IMG/VR virus record: IMGVR_UViG_3300033388_003413
Span: 1-20,045 of that record
Direction: 5' to 3' (one strand)
Length of the DNA: 20,045 nucleotides
DNA from: a virus
Numbering within the stretch: position 1 is the stretch's first letter; each line of letters opens with the position of its first letter. Of this stretch, positions 4,302 through 19,983 are shown piece by piece. The translations under genes were made by a program, and so were the position numbers. Under the pieces are notes generated by a model, which ran no database searches, was not told where the DNA came from, and worked only from the letters and a program-made list of their open reading frames with translations.

Positions 4302-4735
4302 TAAATGCTTCTACAATAACTCGGGCCGCAACTGCTCAACTTGAAACTGCGCTTGATGATACATACAAGATTGAACGTGGTGAGTATGTTAATACTGATC
4401 CTGACAAGACTCCATGGATCGGTGTCTATCGTGGAGACTTAGATTATGACGTTGCTACACTTGGTAGAGGAGCAAACACTTGGAAAGCAGGTTTTGACTT
4501 AACAATAATAGTCCAATCTGCAACTCTACACGGCGAAGCTAGTATTGCAGAAGATAGACTTGAAGCTTCAATAGTAGAAGTCCTAGATGCTATTATGGCA
4601 GATAAAACTATAGGAGGTACTGTTGCTATGATTAATAAAGTAAAAGTTAAGTACTCATATAATGAAACAGAATCTGAAGAGATGTATTTTCAGAATGCCA
4701 CTATCACAATTTCAACAGAGAAGAGGACATCATGA
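4298..4735 (+). CDS. Tail terminator-like minor tail protein
   Basis: A 145-residue alpha/beta protein. It begins with a helix (ITRAATAQLETAL), then a strand-rich region with GVYRGDLDYD and WKAGFDLTIIVQSA, a helix (EASIAEDRLEASIVEVLDAIM) and two C-terminal strands ending in FQNATITISTEKR. This arrangement fits tail terminators (lambda gpU-like, HK97 gp10-neighbour type) that cap the tail tube before head joining. Position decides more than sequence: it lies between tail completion and tail tube, where terminators normally occur. The start ATG overlaps the upstream stop (ATGA), with AAGG 7 bases before it. Its own stop overlaps the ATG of the following small gene. Confidence 0.55.
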   Translation: MINASTITRAATAQLETALDDTYKIERGEYVNTDPDKTPWIGVYRGDLDYDVATLGRGANTWKAGFDLTIIVQSATLHGEASIAEDRLEASIVEVLDAIMADKTIGGTVAMINKVKVKYSYNETESEEMYFQNATITISTEKRTS

Positions 4736-5881: not shown

Positions 5882-6253
5882 ATGAGCAAATTTCTACCAA
5901 ACATAAGTAAGACTTATGAATTTGAAGGCGATACTATCGCTGCTACTTTCAAACGACTTACTCGCCAGCAGATGATGGCTATACAACCTCTTAGCCCTAA
6001 AGTAGTTGGCCGAAAAGATGATAAGCCGATACTTGAAGAGCAAGCGCCTGATCAGCAAGTGGCTATGATGGATCTTGCTATTAATTCTCTTAAAGAGAAC
6101 ATGGTTTCGTTCACTGGACTTAAAGATGGTAACGGCGAAGAAGTCAAGTTTGAAGTAGCAGTAGATCAAGCTTATTTTACTGGACTAATGTCAGGCATGA
6201 CTGGGGACTTACTTTCAGAAAGTATGGTGAACGAAAAAAAGCCGAAGCAGTAA
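5882..6253 (+). CDS. Tail assembly chaperone, G-type product
   Basis: A 123-residue protein. The N-terminal part (FLPNISKTYEFEGDTIAATFKRLTRQQ) and helical middle (QQVAMMDLAINSLKENMVSFTGLKD) fit the first tail assembly chaperone, the lambda gpG equivalent. This protein binds the tape measure during tube assembly and is absent from the finished virion. AGGAG (5869-5873) is 8 bases upstream of the ATG. The gene ends 12 bases after a seven-A run containing the zero-frame heptamer A AAA AAG at 6235-6241. Slippage there yields a longer GT-type protein. The position between tail tube and tape measure is where this pair always sits. Confidence 0.8.
   Translation: MSKFLPNISKTYEFEGDTIAATFKRLTRQQMMAIQPLSPKVVGRKDDKPILEEQAPDQQVAMMDLAINSLKENMVSFTGLKDGNGEEVKFEVAVDQAYFTGLMSGMTGDLLSESMVNEKKPKQ
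6235..6241 (+). promoter_or_regulatory. Programmed -1 ribosomal frameshift site (A AAA AAG)
   Basis: The upstream gene reads GAA AAA AAG CCG here, so the heptamer A AAA AAG is in the exact phase for simultaneous tRNA slippage by -1. This is the same heptamer used by E. coli dnaX. After slippage the next codon starts at 6241 (GCC GAA GCA GTA), and the frame stays open to 6474. This skips the zero-frame TAA at 6251-6253. Position and direction match the -1 G-to-GT shift known in lambda and many long-tailed phages. Confidence 0.85.
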
Positions 6254-6474
6254 ACAAGTCTTTATATAAAGCGCTTCGAGGAATGAAGCACTTTCCACAG
6301 CACGTAGGAGGCATGGAGGTCTCTCAGTGGATAGATTTGTTTGAAGGATGCCACCGCAAGAATGGAAAGGATTCAGTACAATGGTCTTGGCCTGATGGTG
6401 AATGTTATCTTAAGCAGGATAATTTAACCATAGTTATGTTTGAACTTATAAGAGCCCAACTTGGAGATAATTGA
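6241..6474 (+). CDS. T-domain of tail assembly chaperone, made as -1 frameshift fusion (GT)
   Basis: This frame encodes the T part: AEAVNKSLYKALRG, then MKHFPQHVGGMEVSQW, to IRAQLGDN. Decoding 120 codons from 5882 plus 77 after the slip gives a fusion of about 197 residues. The internal ATG at 6283 (63 residues) has no convincing ribosome binding site, so a fusion is more likely than a separate protein. In lambda the T domain contacts the tail tube subunit while the G domain binds the tape measure; the same division is inferred here. The stop overlaps the tape measure ATG (TGATG). Confidence 0.8.
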   Translation, partial: AEAVNKSLYKALRGMKHFPQHVGGMEVSQWIDLFEGCHRKNGKDSVQWSWPDGECYLKQDNLTIVMFELIRAQLGDN

Positions 6475-15385: not shown

Positions 15386-16179
15386 TTTAAATCCTTAATC
15401 TGAAGCAAGAATGGACTATCAATAACTTCCCAATTCTCTAATCCAGCTTGTTCTAACAGATAAGTCAAATCATAAGGGCTATCAAACTCAAATAAATCAA
15501 TTGGATTAATTTCTTCACGCTCAAAGTTTTCTATTACTGATTCAGCTGCTTCAAAGTTATTCTCATATAAGTGTTGAGAACCCGTACTTAAGAATAAACT
15601 ACCAAGTTCTAAACCTGGATAATCATTAAGTAAACAGATAGCGACCCAAGCTGAGATCATCGAAAAGTTAAAAGTATCGTAAACCCAACCAAGCCAAGCA
15701 TCTGATGAACGCATGTTAGCTTTGCAATGTAGCTTATTGCCTCTAATAAACCATTGGAGATTTAATGTACATGGAATATCTTTTGAAGGACCAGGGTTTT
15801 CTCTCCAGATATTAAGTACAGCTTGTCTGGAATCAGCATCACGCTTTAAACATTGTACTACATAACTCAACTGGTCAATTACTTTTGGACCATAAGCTCC
15901 ATTAAACATCATTCCATCATCACTAAACTTTGCAATAGCTTTCATAAACCTTGTAATATCTTCTACTCGATTACTGCCACTTAAAATCCAATGAGCTTCA
16001 CCGCACATGAACTTATAATTCATATCACGTTGTGGAACTGTTATAATTGGTTGATTCATATCTATAACAGATTGATAGCCTATTATCTCTTTTGTTTTCA
16101 TGCCTCTGGGTTTAGAATTGACACCATGTTCCATTATAGCTGTTAGTAACATGTGCCATGATTCGTTAATATTATTCAT
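15382..16179 (-). CDS. Thymidylate synthase-family enzyme, predicted dCMP hydroxymethylase
   Basis: A 265-residue folate-dependent pyrimidine C5 enzyme. Conserved family points: catalytic C137 in DIPCTLNLQW, Glu E61 (GEAHWILSG), Y96-G97, phosphate-binding R118 (DADSRQAV), R157-S158-S159-D160, L163-G164, and H-L-Y near the end (SQHLYEN). The telling site is D168 (LGWVYD). Counting from R157/D160/G164, it aligns with E. coli TS N177, the Asn that reads uracil. T4 dCMP hydroxymethylase has Asp (D179) there, and also Thr after the catalytic Cys, as here (C137-T138), where TS has His. The C-terminus lacks the usual TS ending. I infer dCMP is the substrate, giving 5-hydroxymethyl-dCMP. Ordinary TS activity or dCMP methylation are alternatives. 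It overlaps its upstream gene by 8 bases; AAGG is 8 bases upstream. Confidence 0.7.
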   Translation of the reverse strand: MNNINESWHMLLTAIMEHGVNSKPRGMKTKEIIGYQSVIDMNQPIITVPQRDMNYKFMCGEAHWILSGSNRVEDITRFMKAIAKFSDDGMMFNGAYGPKVIDQLSYVVQCLKRDADSRQAVLNIWRENPGPSKDIPCTLNLQWFIRGNKLHCKANMRSSDAWLGWVYDTFNFSMISAWVAICLLNDYPGLELGSLFLSTGSQHLYENNFEAAESVIENFEREEINPIDLFEFDSPYDLTYLLEQAGLENWEVIDSPFLLQIKDLK

Positions 16180-17227
16180 TACTTTTACCTTTTAATTCAG
16201 TTAAACGGCCGATTGTTGTTTTGCAATAATCGGTTAAGTTACAGCCATCAATTTCAAAATCATAATCTATATAATCTTCACGAAGCATTAAACCTCCTGC
16301 TTCAATTATATGATTTGCATACTCTGATTTAAACTTAGTATTTGCTATGCCATGATAAATAGATCCATAGTACTTAAATATATTATCGATATTCTCATAC
16401 ATTTCTTTGCGTTCAGATTTAAGAGAATTAAATCGCTCAATTCCACGATTAACATTTAAAGGCTTACATACAATATTAAAAGCGCGGTTACTTATCAACA
16501 ATGAATCACAATTATGATGTAAGCCTTCCCAATTAGTACCATCCCTAAATGCTTCAGAATAGCAGATTTCACTTAACCATGCTCTATCAAGTATAACAAG
16601 ATTATCTTTTGACAAATCAACTGCTTCTTGTATAGCATCAATCATATAGCTATCCATAACTTCTTCTAATTCTTTAGACCAAGTTAAATGGATTATTTTA
16701 GCTCCGTACATTTCTTGGAACTTTTCGGCGAGGGTAGTTTTACCACATCCATCAGGTCCATCTAAAACAATAATGCCTTTCGGCTGTCCAACTAAGTCGG
16801 TTAATATTGGAGATTTCCATCCATCAGGTTTTACAAGATCCCGCTTAAACCCACGCTTAGATGCCTCATTAGATCCAGCAAGTTCTTTTTGAAGATTAGT
16901 TGTCATTACACGCATGAAGCCTTCATCCCATGGAAAGCCTTGGCGCTCAGCAGTTCCCATAGTAAATACTCCAAGATCTATAAGAGCATCAAATTGACTT
17001 TCTAAATCTTGATCTTCTTTATATTTTACTTGGTTTATCCGTTGATTAAAGATTCTTATTTCCTCATCAAAATCAGTCTCAAATACAGCGCTAATGTACT
17101 CCATTAACTCTTCATACATCGCTTTACAGCGAAATATTGCTTCTTCTTTAGTTAAAGGTTGTGGACCAATATTATTGCTAAGTTGAAACTTATCATGCAT
17201 TTGTTTTACTAATTGAAAGTTATTCAC
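16172..17227 (-). CDS. MazG-like NTP pyrophosphohydrolase fused to thymidylate-kinase-like nucleotide kinase
   Basis: A 351-residue fusion. Residues ~1-140 fit the all-alpha MazG/dCTPase superfamily: E39-E40-L-M-E43 metal ligands, D80-A-L-I-D84 with the hydrophobic helix after it, RQGFPWDEGFMRV, a NLQKE motif and the closing KPDGWKSP (133-140). These enzymes cut (d)NTPs to monophosphate. Residues ~150-350 are a P-loop kinase: LDGPDGCGKTT (Walker A G157-T165), then LVILDRAWLSEICYSE, the DR-x(n)-S-x-x-Y block of thymidylate/nucleotide kinases. The start is GTG 17227, with AGGAG 6 bases upstream. One polypeptide thus combines dNTP hydrolysis and dNMP phosphorylation, the T4 gp56 and gp1 activities, next to the predicted hydroxymethylase. 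Substrates are inferred. Confidence 0.75.
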   Translation of the reverse strand: MNNFQLVKQMHDKFQLSNNIGPQPLTKEEAIFRCKAMYEELMEYISAVFETDFDEEIRIFNQRINQVKYKEDQDLESQFDALIDLGVFTMGTAERQGFPWDEGFMRVMTTNLQKELAGSNEASKRGFKRDLVKPDGWKSPILTDLVGQPKGIIVLDGPDGCGKTTLAEKFQEMYGAKIIHLTWSKELEEVMDSYMIDAIQEAVDLSKDNLVILDRAWLSEICYSEAFRDGTNWEGLHHNCDSLLISNRAFNIVCKPLNVNRGIERFNSLKSERKEMYENIDNIFKYYGSIYHGIANTKFKSEYANHIIEAGGLMLREDYIDYDFEIDGCNLTDYCKTTIGRLTELKGKSNE

Positions 17228-18688: not shown

Positions 18689-18967
18689 TTAATTCCAATT
18701 GTTATTAGGATCGGTAATTGTAATTGATTCTCTTACTATTTGAACTATGTTATCTCCTTTTTTGTAAATGAGTCTACCTGTTGCCATGTTCATAACAAGA
18801 ATTCTTCCTAATTCATCTTTAGGAAGATTAGTATTGCCAATTTTACATACTTTATAAAATCCAATAGTATTATCTGGATCTACTGTTTGAACTGTTATAC
18901 CTGGGCTTATTTCATTAAGAAGTCTTTCAATCACAACTTCATTTTTTCTTTGATTTAAAATAGACAT
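18689..18967 (-). CDS. Hypothetical protein, 92 residues
   Basis: I do not recognise this protein. A short helix (QRKNEVVIERLLNEI) is followed by an all-beta part: GITVQTV, TIGFYKVCKI, RILVMNMATGRLIYKKGD, then IVQIVRESITI. It resembles a small beta-barrel but shows no catalytic signature. The ATG at 18967 has no good ribosome binding site of its own. Its start lies 4 bases after the stop (18972-18974) of the -1 frame extension of the upstream lysine-rich gene. That placement suggests translation by re-initiation from the frameshifted reading and supports that frame being translated. Confidence 0.6.
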   Translation of the reverse strand: MSILNQRKNEVVIERLLNEISPGITVQTVDPDNTIGFYKVCKIGNTNLPKDELGRILVMNMATGRLIYKKGDNIVQIVRESITITDPNNNWN

Positions 18968-18971
18968 AATT

Positions 18972-19181
18972 TTATTTATGATCTAACCGCTTCATTAGAT
19001 CCCTTAAAGTTTTTCTTACTTGGCTTTCATGGCAAGTTGAAGTAGCAAATCCAGGAGAGAACTTAGTTGGCTCTCTTAGTTTTACTTGGACTAAACATTG
19101 CTTCAGATCTTCATTCTGAAGAGTGACGGAGTATAGAAACTCCGCCCCTTTTCTTACTTTTAACGTTAGTCCTTTTTCGAC
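18972..19181 (-). CDS. Candidate -1 frameshift extension of the lysine-rich protein (69 codons)
   Basis: On the minus strand, this frame opens at the A AAA AAG heptamer at 19181-19187 and runs 69 sense codons to TAA. It contains no ATG, GTG or TTG until codon 63, so it lacks a usual start. The product looks like a folded domain: GLTLKVRKGAEFLYSVTLQ, EDLKQCLVQVKL, FSPGFATSTCHES, then a helix VRKTLRDLMKRLDHK. The fusion from 19552 would be ~193 residues, giving a lysine-rich linker between two domains. Alternatives are a natural or sequencing indel in the six-A run, or an unusual start such as CTG at codon 26. It fills an otherwise empty 198-base gap and ends 4 bases before the next gene. Confidence 0.55.
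   Translation of the reverse strand, partial: VEKGLTLKVRKGAEFLYSVTLQNEDLKQCLVQVKLREPTKFSPGFATSTCHESQVRKTLRDLMKRLDHK
19127..19144. repeat. Small stem-loop (CGGAGT / ACTCCG, 6-base loop)
   Basis: A perfect 6-base inverted repeat with a 6-base loop, inside the -1 frame extension. It is GC-richer than its surroundings. It has no U-tract in either direction, so a terminator is unlikely, and it is 36 bases past the candidate slip site. Confidence 0.3.
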
Positions 19182-19552
19182 TTTTTTGAACGTTTGCGCT
19201 CTTTCTTTTCTTTAACCTTCTTTTCTTTAGCAGGTTTTTTGGTAACTTTCTTTTCTTTAGCTACTTTTTTAACTCGCTTTTCTTTAACTGCACTTTTCTT
19301 TTTAGAAGGCTTTTCTTTCTTAACAGTCTTTTCTTTAGCTACAGTCCTACGAGCTATATACTTCGCGTGTTGTTCAGGTGTAATGTCACCATCACGTTTT
19401 AACTGAGCTGAGTAGAACTTAACATGCGATTCATCAGCTACAGAGTTTGGACATTTCTTTGCAACTGCCTTAAGGATTTTATCCATAGTCCAGCCATTGG
19501 TAATGCCTTTGACGACTACAGATTTTACTGTAGTTTTTACTGCTTTAGCCAT
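19166..19552 (-). CDS. Lysine-rich protein with small N-terminal domain and H1-like tail
   Basis: A 128-residue protein in the zero frame. Residues ~15-70 form a small helical domain (GWTMDKILKAVAKKCPNS, then HVKFYSAQLKRDGDI) shared with the next gene to the right (pattern FPKS, H-[IV]-x-x-Y, L-x-RDG, ARR). Residues ~75-128 are repeats of the A/K-E-K-K type (VAKEKKVTKKPAKEKK), resembling histone H1 or bacterial H1-like tails, so it probably binds nucleic acid through charge. AGGAG is 8 bases before the ATG. Just before its stop the frame meets A AAA AAG, and the -1 frame continues for 69 codons, so the true product may be longer. Confidence 0.7.
   Translation of the reverse strand: MAKAVKTTVKSVVVKGITNGWTMDKILKAVAKKCPNSVADESHVKFYSAQLKRDGDITPEQHAKYIARRTVAKEKTVKKEKPSKKKSAVKEKRVKKVAKEKKVTKKPAKEKKVKEKKERKRSKKSKKD
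19181..19187 (-). promoter_or_regulatory. Candidate -1 frameshift site (A AAA AAG) in the lysine-rich gene
   Basis: The zero frame reads TCA AAA AAG TCG, so the heptamer is in slippage phase, like the tail chaperone site at 6235-6241. It lies five codons before the zero-frame stop at 19166-19168. The -1 frame is closed upstream by a TAA nine codons before the shift, so a productive shift must occur in this short window, exactly where the heptamer is. A 6-base stem (19127-19132 with 19139-19144) lies 36 bases downstream, too far to be a classical stimulator. Confidence 0.55.
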
Positions 19553-19605: not shown

Positions 19606-19983
19606 TTATTTGGTTTGGGTTTTTAACCAATCTTTATAAGCTTTAGATCTTCTTGGTGCATATTGAGGACCAAGGATTCCATCACGGAATAATGTCGAGC
19701 GATACCAAGAGATATGGTTATTGTTAAATGCAGACTTTGGAAATGCTTTTTGGATAAGCTCAACGATCTCTTTATCAGTTTTATCTTCAAGAATTAAATC
19801 CAGAACCATAGTCTTTATAGAAAATGCTGGTTTAGCTTCTGGATAAAGTTCTTCTAATTTCTTTTTGATTTTAGGAACTGATGGACCAGATGCTATTTTC
19901 TTATCGTCAAGAAATGCATCCAAAGTATGTTTGGTTCTTCTAACTAAATCAAAAGTTATATTGTTTACTATTACTTGTTTCAT
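19606..19983 (-). CDS. Hypothetical protein with the small domain shared by the lysine-rich neighbour
   Basis: I choose ATG 19983 (125 residues), which has GGAG about 10 bases upstream. An in-frame ATG at 20028 would add 15 residues but has only a weak site. The N-terminal part has a strand pair (VIVNNITFDLVRRTKH) and a helix with SVPKIKKKLEELYP. Residues ~55-110 hold the shared domain: TDKEIVELIQKAFPKS, HISWYRSTLFRDG, YAPRRSK. This [IV]-x-WY-R/K-S-x-L pattern recurs in phage proteins and looks like a small helical, perhaps nucleic-acid-binding, fold. No catalytic motif is seen. The stop lies ~53 bases before the lysine-rich gene, whose strong AGGAG suggests independent initiation. Confidence 0.65.
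   Translation of the reverse strand: MKQVIVNNITFDLVRRTKHTLDAFLDDKKIASGPSVPKIKKKLEELYPEAKPAFSIKTMVLDLILEDKTDKEIVELIQKAFPKSAFNNNHISWYRSTLFRDGILGPQYAPRRSKAYKDWLKTQTK

Follow-up and report, generated by a model that had tools for sequence, protein, structure and literature searches.

The lysine-rich gene 19552..19166, carried on the minus strand of a virus record, very likely undergoes programmed −1 ribosomal frameshifting, which would yield nucleic-acid-binding proteins of two lengths; the slippage, its rate and the function of the products are inferred, and there are no bench data. The record, IMGVR_UViG_3300033388_003413, comprises 20,045 bases and was analysed as a whole. It is referred to here as the window, and all coordinates are those of the whole window. 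No close match to the window was found among annotated phages.

Frame layout of the lysine-rich gene

The features on which this interpretation rests are as follows.

19166..19552, minus strand: zero-frame lysine-rich gene (128 aa, the short product), with homologues in five other records
19181..19187, minus strand: slippery heptamer A_AAA_AAG, in phase (codons TCA AAA AAG) and kept in 6/6 homologues
18972..19180, minus strand: hidden −1-frame coding region, 69 codons plus stop after the heptamer (profile E 3.5e-32 in the window)
19125..19146, minus strand: conserved RNA hairpin in the hidden frame, at the codons of the GAEFLYSV motif (innermost 8 pairs)
18689..18967, minus strand: next gene, with its ATG at 18967, 4 nt after the −1 stop, and no Shine-Dalgarno; a homologue follows in L022
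19606..19983, minus strand: upstream gene, with a C-terminal half paralogous to the N-domain of the frameshift gene

In the zero-frame product, an N-terminal domain is followed by a lysine-rich tail, and 39 of the 128 residues are lysine. Immediately 3′ of the heptamer, the zero frame reads TCG AAA AAG GAC TAA (four sense codons and a stop), and a gap of 198 nt separates this stop from the next gene. The −1 frame is open from the heptamer until a stop ending at 18972, the first codon of the hidden region also taking in the G at 19181, and the fusion would comprise 193 aa. The sole ATG, GTG or TTG in this frame is codon 63. This arrangement is directly supported, and every number given for it in a first-pass annotation of the window was reproduced. 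The claim of a zero frame ending shortly after an in-phase A AAA AAG held exactly, as did those of a 69-codon −1 frame lacking a start before codon 63 and ending 4 bases before the next gene, of a 198-base gap, and of a poor ribosome binding site for that gene. The conserved hairpin and the coupling geometry described below had been missed.

In the proposed mechanism, ribosomes would translate the HTH-like domain and then the lysine-rich tail, with the majority terminating at the zero-frame stop to give a short form that carries an H1-like tail. The remaining fraction, with two Lys-tRNAs on A_AAA_AAG, would slip back one base, read the −1 frame and append a folded C-terminal beta4-alpha domain, giving the long 193-aa protein. 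Both products would probably act in an early nucleic-acid-metabolism operon, and the shifted ribosomes, finishing at the next start codon, would probably tune translation of the downstream gene. The two forms, one with an H1-like tail and one with a second domain, had been anticipated in the first-pass annotation and fit the present results, but frameshifting lacks experimental demonstration; that slippage occurs, and at what rate, is inferred only.

A heptamer of this kind arises easily in a lysine-rich gene, which is a point against programmed frameshifting. An in-phase A_AAA_AAR was found in only two of the 25 window ORFs (6,358 codons), namely the tail-chaperone gene and the frameshift gene, and the single occurrence in the latter is the heptamer at 19187..19181. 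Synonymous-codon shuffles of the window gene gave an expectation of 3.3 in-phase heptamers against the one observed, and that one falls in the 46-nt stretch where slipping would be productive (P = 0.024). Given the restriction to two of 25 ORFs and this shuffle probability, the arrangement appears to be beyond chance. The same test returned P values of 0.11 for L022, 0.20 for L008, 0.40 for L011, 0.39 for L009 and 0.79 for L012, the genes of L009, L011 and L012 each being non-significant alone; the product of the six probabilities is ∼7e-5, which ignores shared ancestry and is hence optimistic. The presence of A_AAA_AAG in the tail-chaperone gene of the same phage further supports the frameshift reading.

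Relatives, coding evidence and predicted domains

Direct protein searches against annotated phages gave no real match for either the −1 domain or the zero-frame gene, and scans for close relatives with either as query returned no relatives. Relatives were instead reached through neighbouring genes or an N-domain profile. Six records, ascribed to a family of uncultivated tailed phages, were compared: the window, four IMG/VR contigs (L008, L009, L011 and L012) and L022. The contig L007/L011 (IMGVR_UViG_3300027852_000072) was found by a scan with the upstream gene as query; L008, L009 and L012 were found by a methyltransferase profile, and L022 (CAJYBF010000017.1), a phage contig inside a Mollicutes MAG, by the N-domain profile. 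The latter contig is binned as an uncultured Mollicutes bacterium and encodes the phage operon; it is likely to be misbinned phage DNA. Across the viral and genome scans, relatives total five besides the window, so that only six records are known.

The order HTH-like gene, lysine-rich gene, hidden frame, small genes in some records and methyltransferase is common to all six. A helicase lies upstream of the cluster in L008, L009, L011 and L012; the window does not extend that far. Every record has an in-phase A_AAA_AAG in its lysine-rich gene, followed by 69–121 open codons in the −1 frame. In L008 there is a second site, A_AAA_AAA, just 5′ of the zero-frame stop, and the zero frame of L022 terminates immediately after the heptamer (AAA AAG TAG). 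Profile searches of 13 records located the C-domain in the −1 frame of all six records with the N-domain and never alone; it was not found as a separate gene in any record, and no record with an in-frame fusion of both domains was found. The first-pass annotation had named a decayed downstream frame, or stops within it, in relatives as outcomes that would refute the frameshift; these were sought and not found. Six diverged records thus retain heptamer, frame relation and hidden domain, and this conservation is shown directly.

Further relatives of the methyltransferase (AXL_3, PW916, MW202621, L028 and L029), and also L013, were set aside, as they lack the C-domain and a close N-domain. In Stenotrophomonas phage AXL_3 (L014 2147..3905) and Pseudoxanthomonas phage PW916 (L017 1..930), different lysine-rich/HTH-like genes precede the methyltransferase, with the HTH-like part C-terminal and the lysine-rich part in the same frame.

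Homology of the C-domain is evident in the −1 frame, with E 1.5e-16 for L011 versus L009 and 9e-7 for L011 versus L012. The nearest relative of the window domain is that of L022 (61% identity). Over 70 codons of the −1 frame, these two records have 26, 16 and 35 differences at codon positions 1, 2 and 3, respectively; dN is 0.30 with dS saturated, similar to the dN of 0.27 for the N-domain. The −1 frame is therefore under purifying selection between the window and L022. The junction KKVE[KR]GLTLK is kept from the heptamer onward in the same pair, despite the zero frame of L022 stopping at once. In L009, L011 and L012, an aligned −1-frame stretch (AEKSFEDIA, AENYFSEVT and AKSYVKELV, respectively) precedes the zero-frame stop. 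Since the conserved −1 protein begins 5′ of this stop, the frame change has to occur upstream of it. None of the six records has an ATG, GTG or TTG in the −1 frame before codons 43–65; the earliest start codon in each is located inside the conserved domain or 3′ of it, lacks a clear Shine-Dalgarno, and in three records falls within the hairpin. No alternative route to the downstream domain, whether in-frame fusion or a separate start, exists in the records examined.

An AlphaFold2 model of the C-domain from six sequences was fairly confident (mean pLDDT 82.5) and comprised four strands and a helix (beta4-alpha). The N-domain model (mean pLDDT 73.8) had four helices and is HTH-like over about residues 8–66. 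Searches of the C-domain against Pfam gave no significant family match, and matches to STN1_2 (E 0.03) and to receptor fragments were rejected as chance level. The one PHROG match, phrog_20545 (E 0.001), has one member only, and no PHROG family was matched across its members. Foldseek returned nothing with E below 0.001; its weak top PDB rows include PUR repeats, an RNA-phage coat protein and other nucleic-acid binders, which can serve as a lead only. Because of the HTH-like N-domain, the lysine-rich tail and the operon context, both products are proposed to bind DNA or RNA, which is likely but is an untested inference without a significant match. The SWYRSTLFRDG motif of the upstream gene (19606..19983, minus strand) is very conserved in relatives.

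The early operon comprises helicase, HTH-like gene, frameshift gene, methyltransferase, MazG/dTMP kinase and thymidylate synthase. Its gene at 16172..17227 (minus strand) encodes a MazG-like pyrophosphohydrolase that seems to be fused to a thymidylate kinase-like domain, and thymidylate synthase and dCMP deaminase lie 3′ of it; phage MW202510 has separate genes. In all six records, the −1 frame stops close to the next start codon, the extremes being an overlap of 14 nt with the next gene and a gap of 10 nt ahead of it. Since the frame ends at the next start codon, the slip may also tune downstream translation. That frameshifted ribosomes feed translation of the next gene is possible, but this is inferred from geometry only, and coupling is untested.

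The RNA hairpin and other candidate stimulators

The window hairpin has a minimum free energy of −14.9 kcal/mol (36-nt window 19153..19118), a stability reached by 0/60 codon-shuffled controls, and ranks in the top 0.1% of 36-nt windows. An equivalent hairpin (−12.9 to −23.6 kcal/mol) is found at the GAEFLYSV or equivalent codons in 6/6 homologues, always within the top 0.6% of 36-nt windows of its own locus. None of 60 codon shuffles was as stable in five of the six records; the result for L011 was weak, with 5/60 shuffles reaching it. When L008, L012, L009 and L011 were placed in codon register, 84% of cells paired, and both sides differed in 8 of 14 pairs. These values were matched by 0–1 of 500 shuffles, and pairing dropped to 36–57% in slid controls. 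The hairpins of the window and L022 fold in a register five bases off the other four, with one double change, and for this reason a joint alignment of all six was left out.

Covariation of the hairpin in the four more distant records is thus shown. Its role is inferred only: remote stimulator, operator and reinitiation control are each possible. No Rfam match to the hairpin was found. An intrinsic terminator was rejected, as the window coding strand has no T-tract and an antisense terminator-like match is, by eye, not kept in relatives.

A_AAA_AAG belongs to the most efficient −1 motifs of E. coli; without a stimulator, however, the best three of its class gave ∼0.3% there (PMC4066793). A canonical stimulator, i.e. 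a hairpin or pseudoknot 5–9 nt downstream, was not seen in the window, L022, L008 or L012, and together with the ∼0.3% figure this counts against the frameshift reading. Candidates near the heptamer are confined to three records, in contrast to the remote hairpin conserved in 6/6: dnaX-like AAGGAG ∼10 nt upstream in L012, dnaX-like AGGAGG ∼15 nt upstream in L011, and in L009 alone a dnaX-like hairpin (4703..4735, ∼−9.9 kcal/mol) six bases 3′ of the heptamer.

It could be argued that the conserved hairpin is itself a long-range, IS3411-like frameshift stimulator rather than a separate RNA element. In favour of this, the hairpin is present in 6/6 records and covaries, and stimulators of the IS3 family employ a second stem-loop 44–104 nt downstream (PMC5009743). 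Against it, the hairpin starts 34–175 nt 3′ of the heptamer but only 16–42 nt 3′ of the zero-frame stop, no consistent partner stem was seen near the heptamer (stem 1 is clear only in L009), and an operator bound by its own protein, or reinitiation control, fits equally well. On balance, we lean away from the stimulator interpretation.

A bolder reading, in which the parts form a frameshift-controlled regulatory switch in the phage early operon, is unlikely. The C-domain of the minor long form would recognise the conserved hairpin within the mRNA that encodes it, ribosomes that had shifted and finished at the next start codon would set translation of the downstream genes, and the hairpin would close a feedback loop.

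Alternative explanations and known systems

In transcriptional slippage, bases would be gained or lost as RNA polymerase copies the A-run, and the altered mRNA would be translated in a single frame. Such slippage can look identical at the sequence level, and the site is indeed an A-run. It is nevertheless very unlikely: five of the six records have a run of six A, with one run of six and one of seven in L008, a survey of prokaryotes gives runs of >7 A for transcriptional realignment (PMC3711429), and the conserved feature is a phased heptamer ending in G, a ribosomal signature.

There is similarly very little to recommend independent or coupled initiation, by which the hidden domain would be a protein of its own and not part of a fusion. 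A GTG or TTG does occur within the domain in L009, L011 and L012, but the position of the first starts, the want of a clear Shine-Dalgarno and the three starts inside the hairpin all argue against their use, and the conserved −1 residues begin at the heptamer in the window and L022 and well 5′ of the zero-frame stop in L009, L011 and L012. A decayed gene or sequencing error, whereby an indel split a formerly continuous gene, is all but excluded: homopolymers attract such errors, but the same frame relation recurs in six diverged, independently assembled contigs with differing flanking bases, so that a shared error is not credible, purifying selection persists in the −1 frame, and no in-frame fusion record was found.

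Programmed frameshifting thus remains the preferred reading, and several known systems resemble it. E. coli dnaX has the same A_AAA_AAG in a gene for a cytoplasmic nucleic-acid protein that gives two products with different C-termini, and the Shine-Dalgarno-like stretches of L012 and L011 and the nearby hairpin of L009 add to the likeness; however, the dnaX shift truncates whereas that of the window gene would extend by a new domain, the proteins are unrelated, and the window has no near hairpin. The IS3-family orfA/orfB pair uses A_AAA_AAG or A_AAA_AAA to join an HTH protein to a second domain across overlapping ORFs, and remote stem-loops can stimulate the shift (PMC5009743). The window gene differs in its fixed place in a phage operon and its lack of a transposase domain, and an IS3-type transposon frameshift was rejected as the −1 region gave no transposase match.

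Lambda-type tail chaperone G/GT likewise has a short form and a long form with a second domain, and the tail-chaperone gene of the window shares the heptamer. The frameshift gene encodes an unrelated protein in another operon, on the opposite strand from the 5882..6474 pair and not beside the tape measure gene, and was rejected as a tail assembly chaperone. The gene at 5882..6474 (plus strand) is itself of the tail assembly chaperone type; it has A_AAA_AAG in phase at 6235 and a −1 frame that extends to 6474, and is inferred from its sequence to be an ordinary G/GT-type frameshift candidate.

Phage capsid and tail frameshifts (T7 and T3 gene 10, A2, Listeria PSA/A118) also append a C-terminal domain but concern virion proteins, whereas the window gene is non-virion and lies in an early operon. 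The phage cases covered by one review comprise tail chaperones, proteins of capsid and tail, and one cro, that of phage A2, whose frameshift was seen in E. coli and judged apparently irrelevant in its host (PMC5009743). The first-pass statement that frameshifting is rare outside tail chaperones therefore held in spirit, with capsid, major-tail and A2 cro exceptions. The literature searched, which does not cover all journals, contained no earlier report of this gene family.

Phage frameshifts known so far serve mainly virion assembly, and the conserved case described here lies outside the virion-assembly genes. Phage annotation and protein-family databases thus lack hidden C-terminal domains of this kind. 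The covarying hairpin, whose position is tied to a coding motif and a stop rather than to the slip site, constitutes a testable new element that may be a remote stimulator or an operator.
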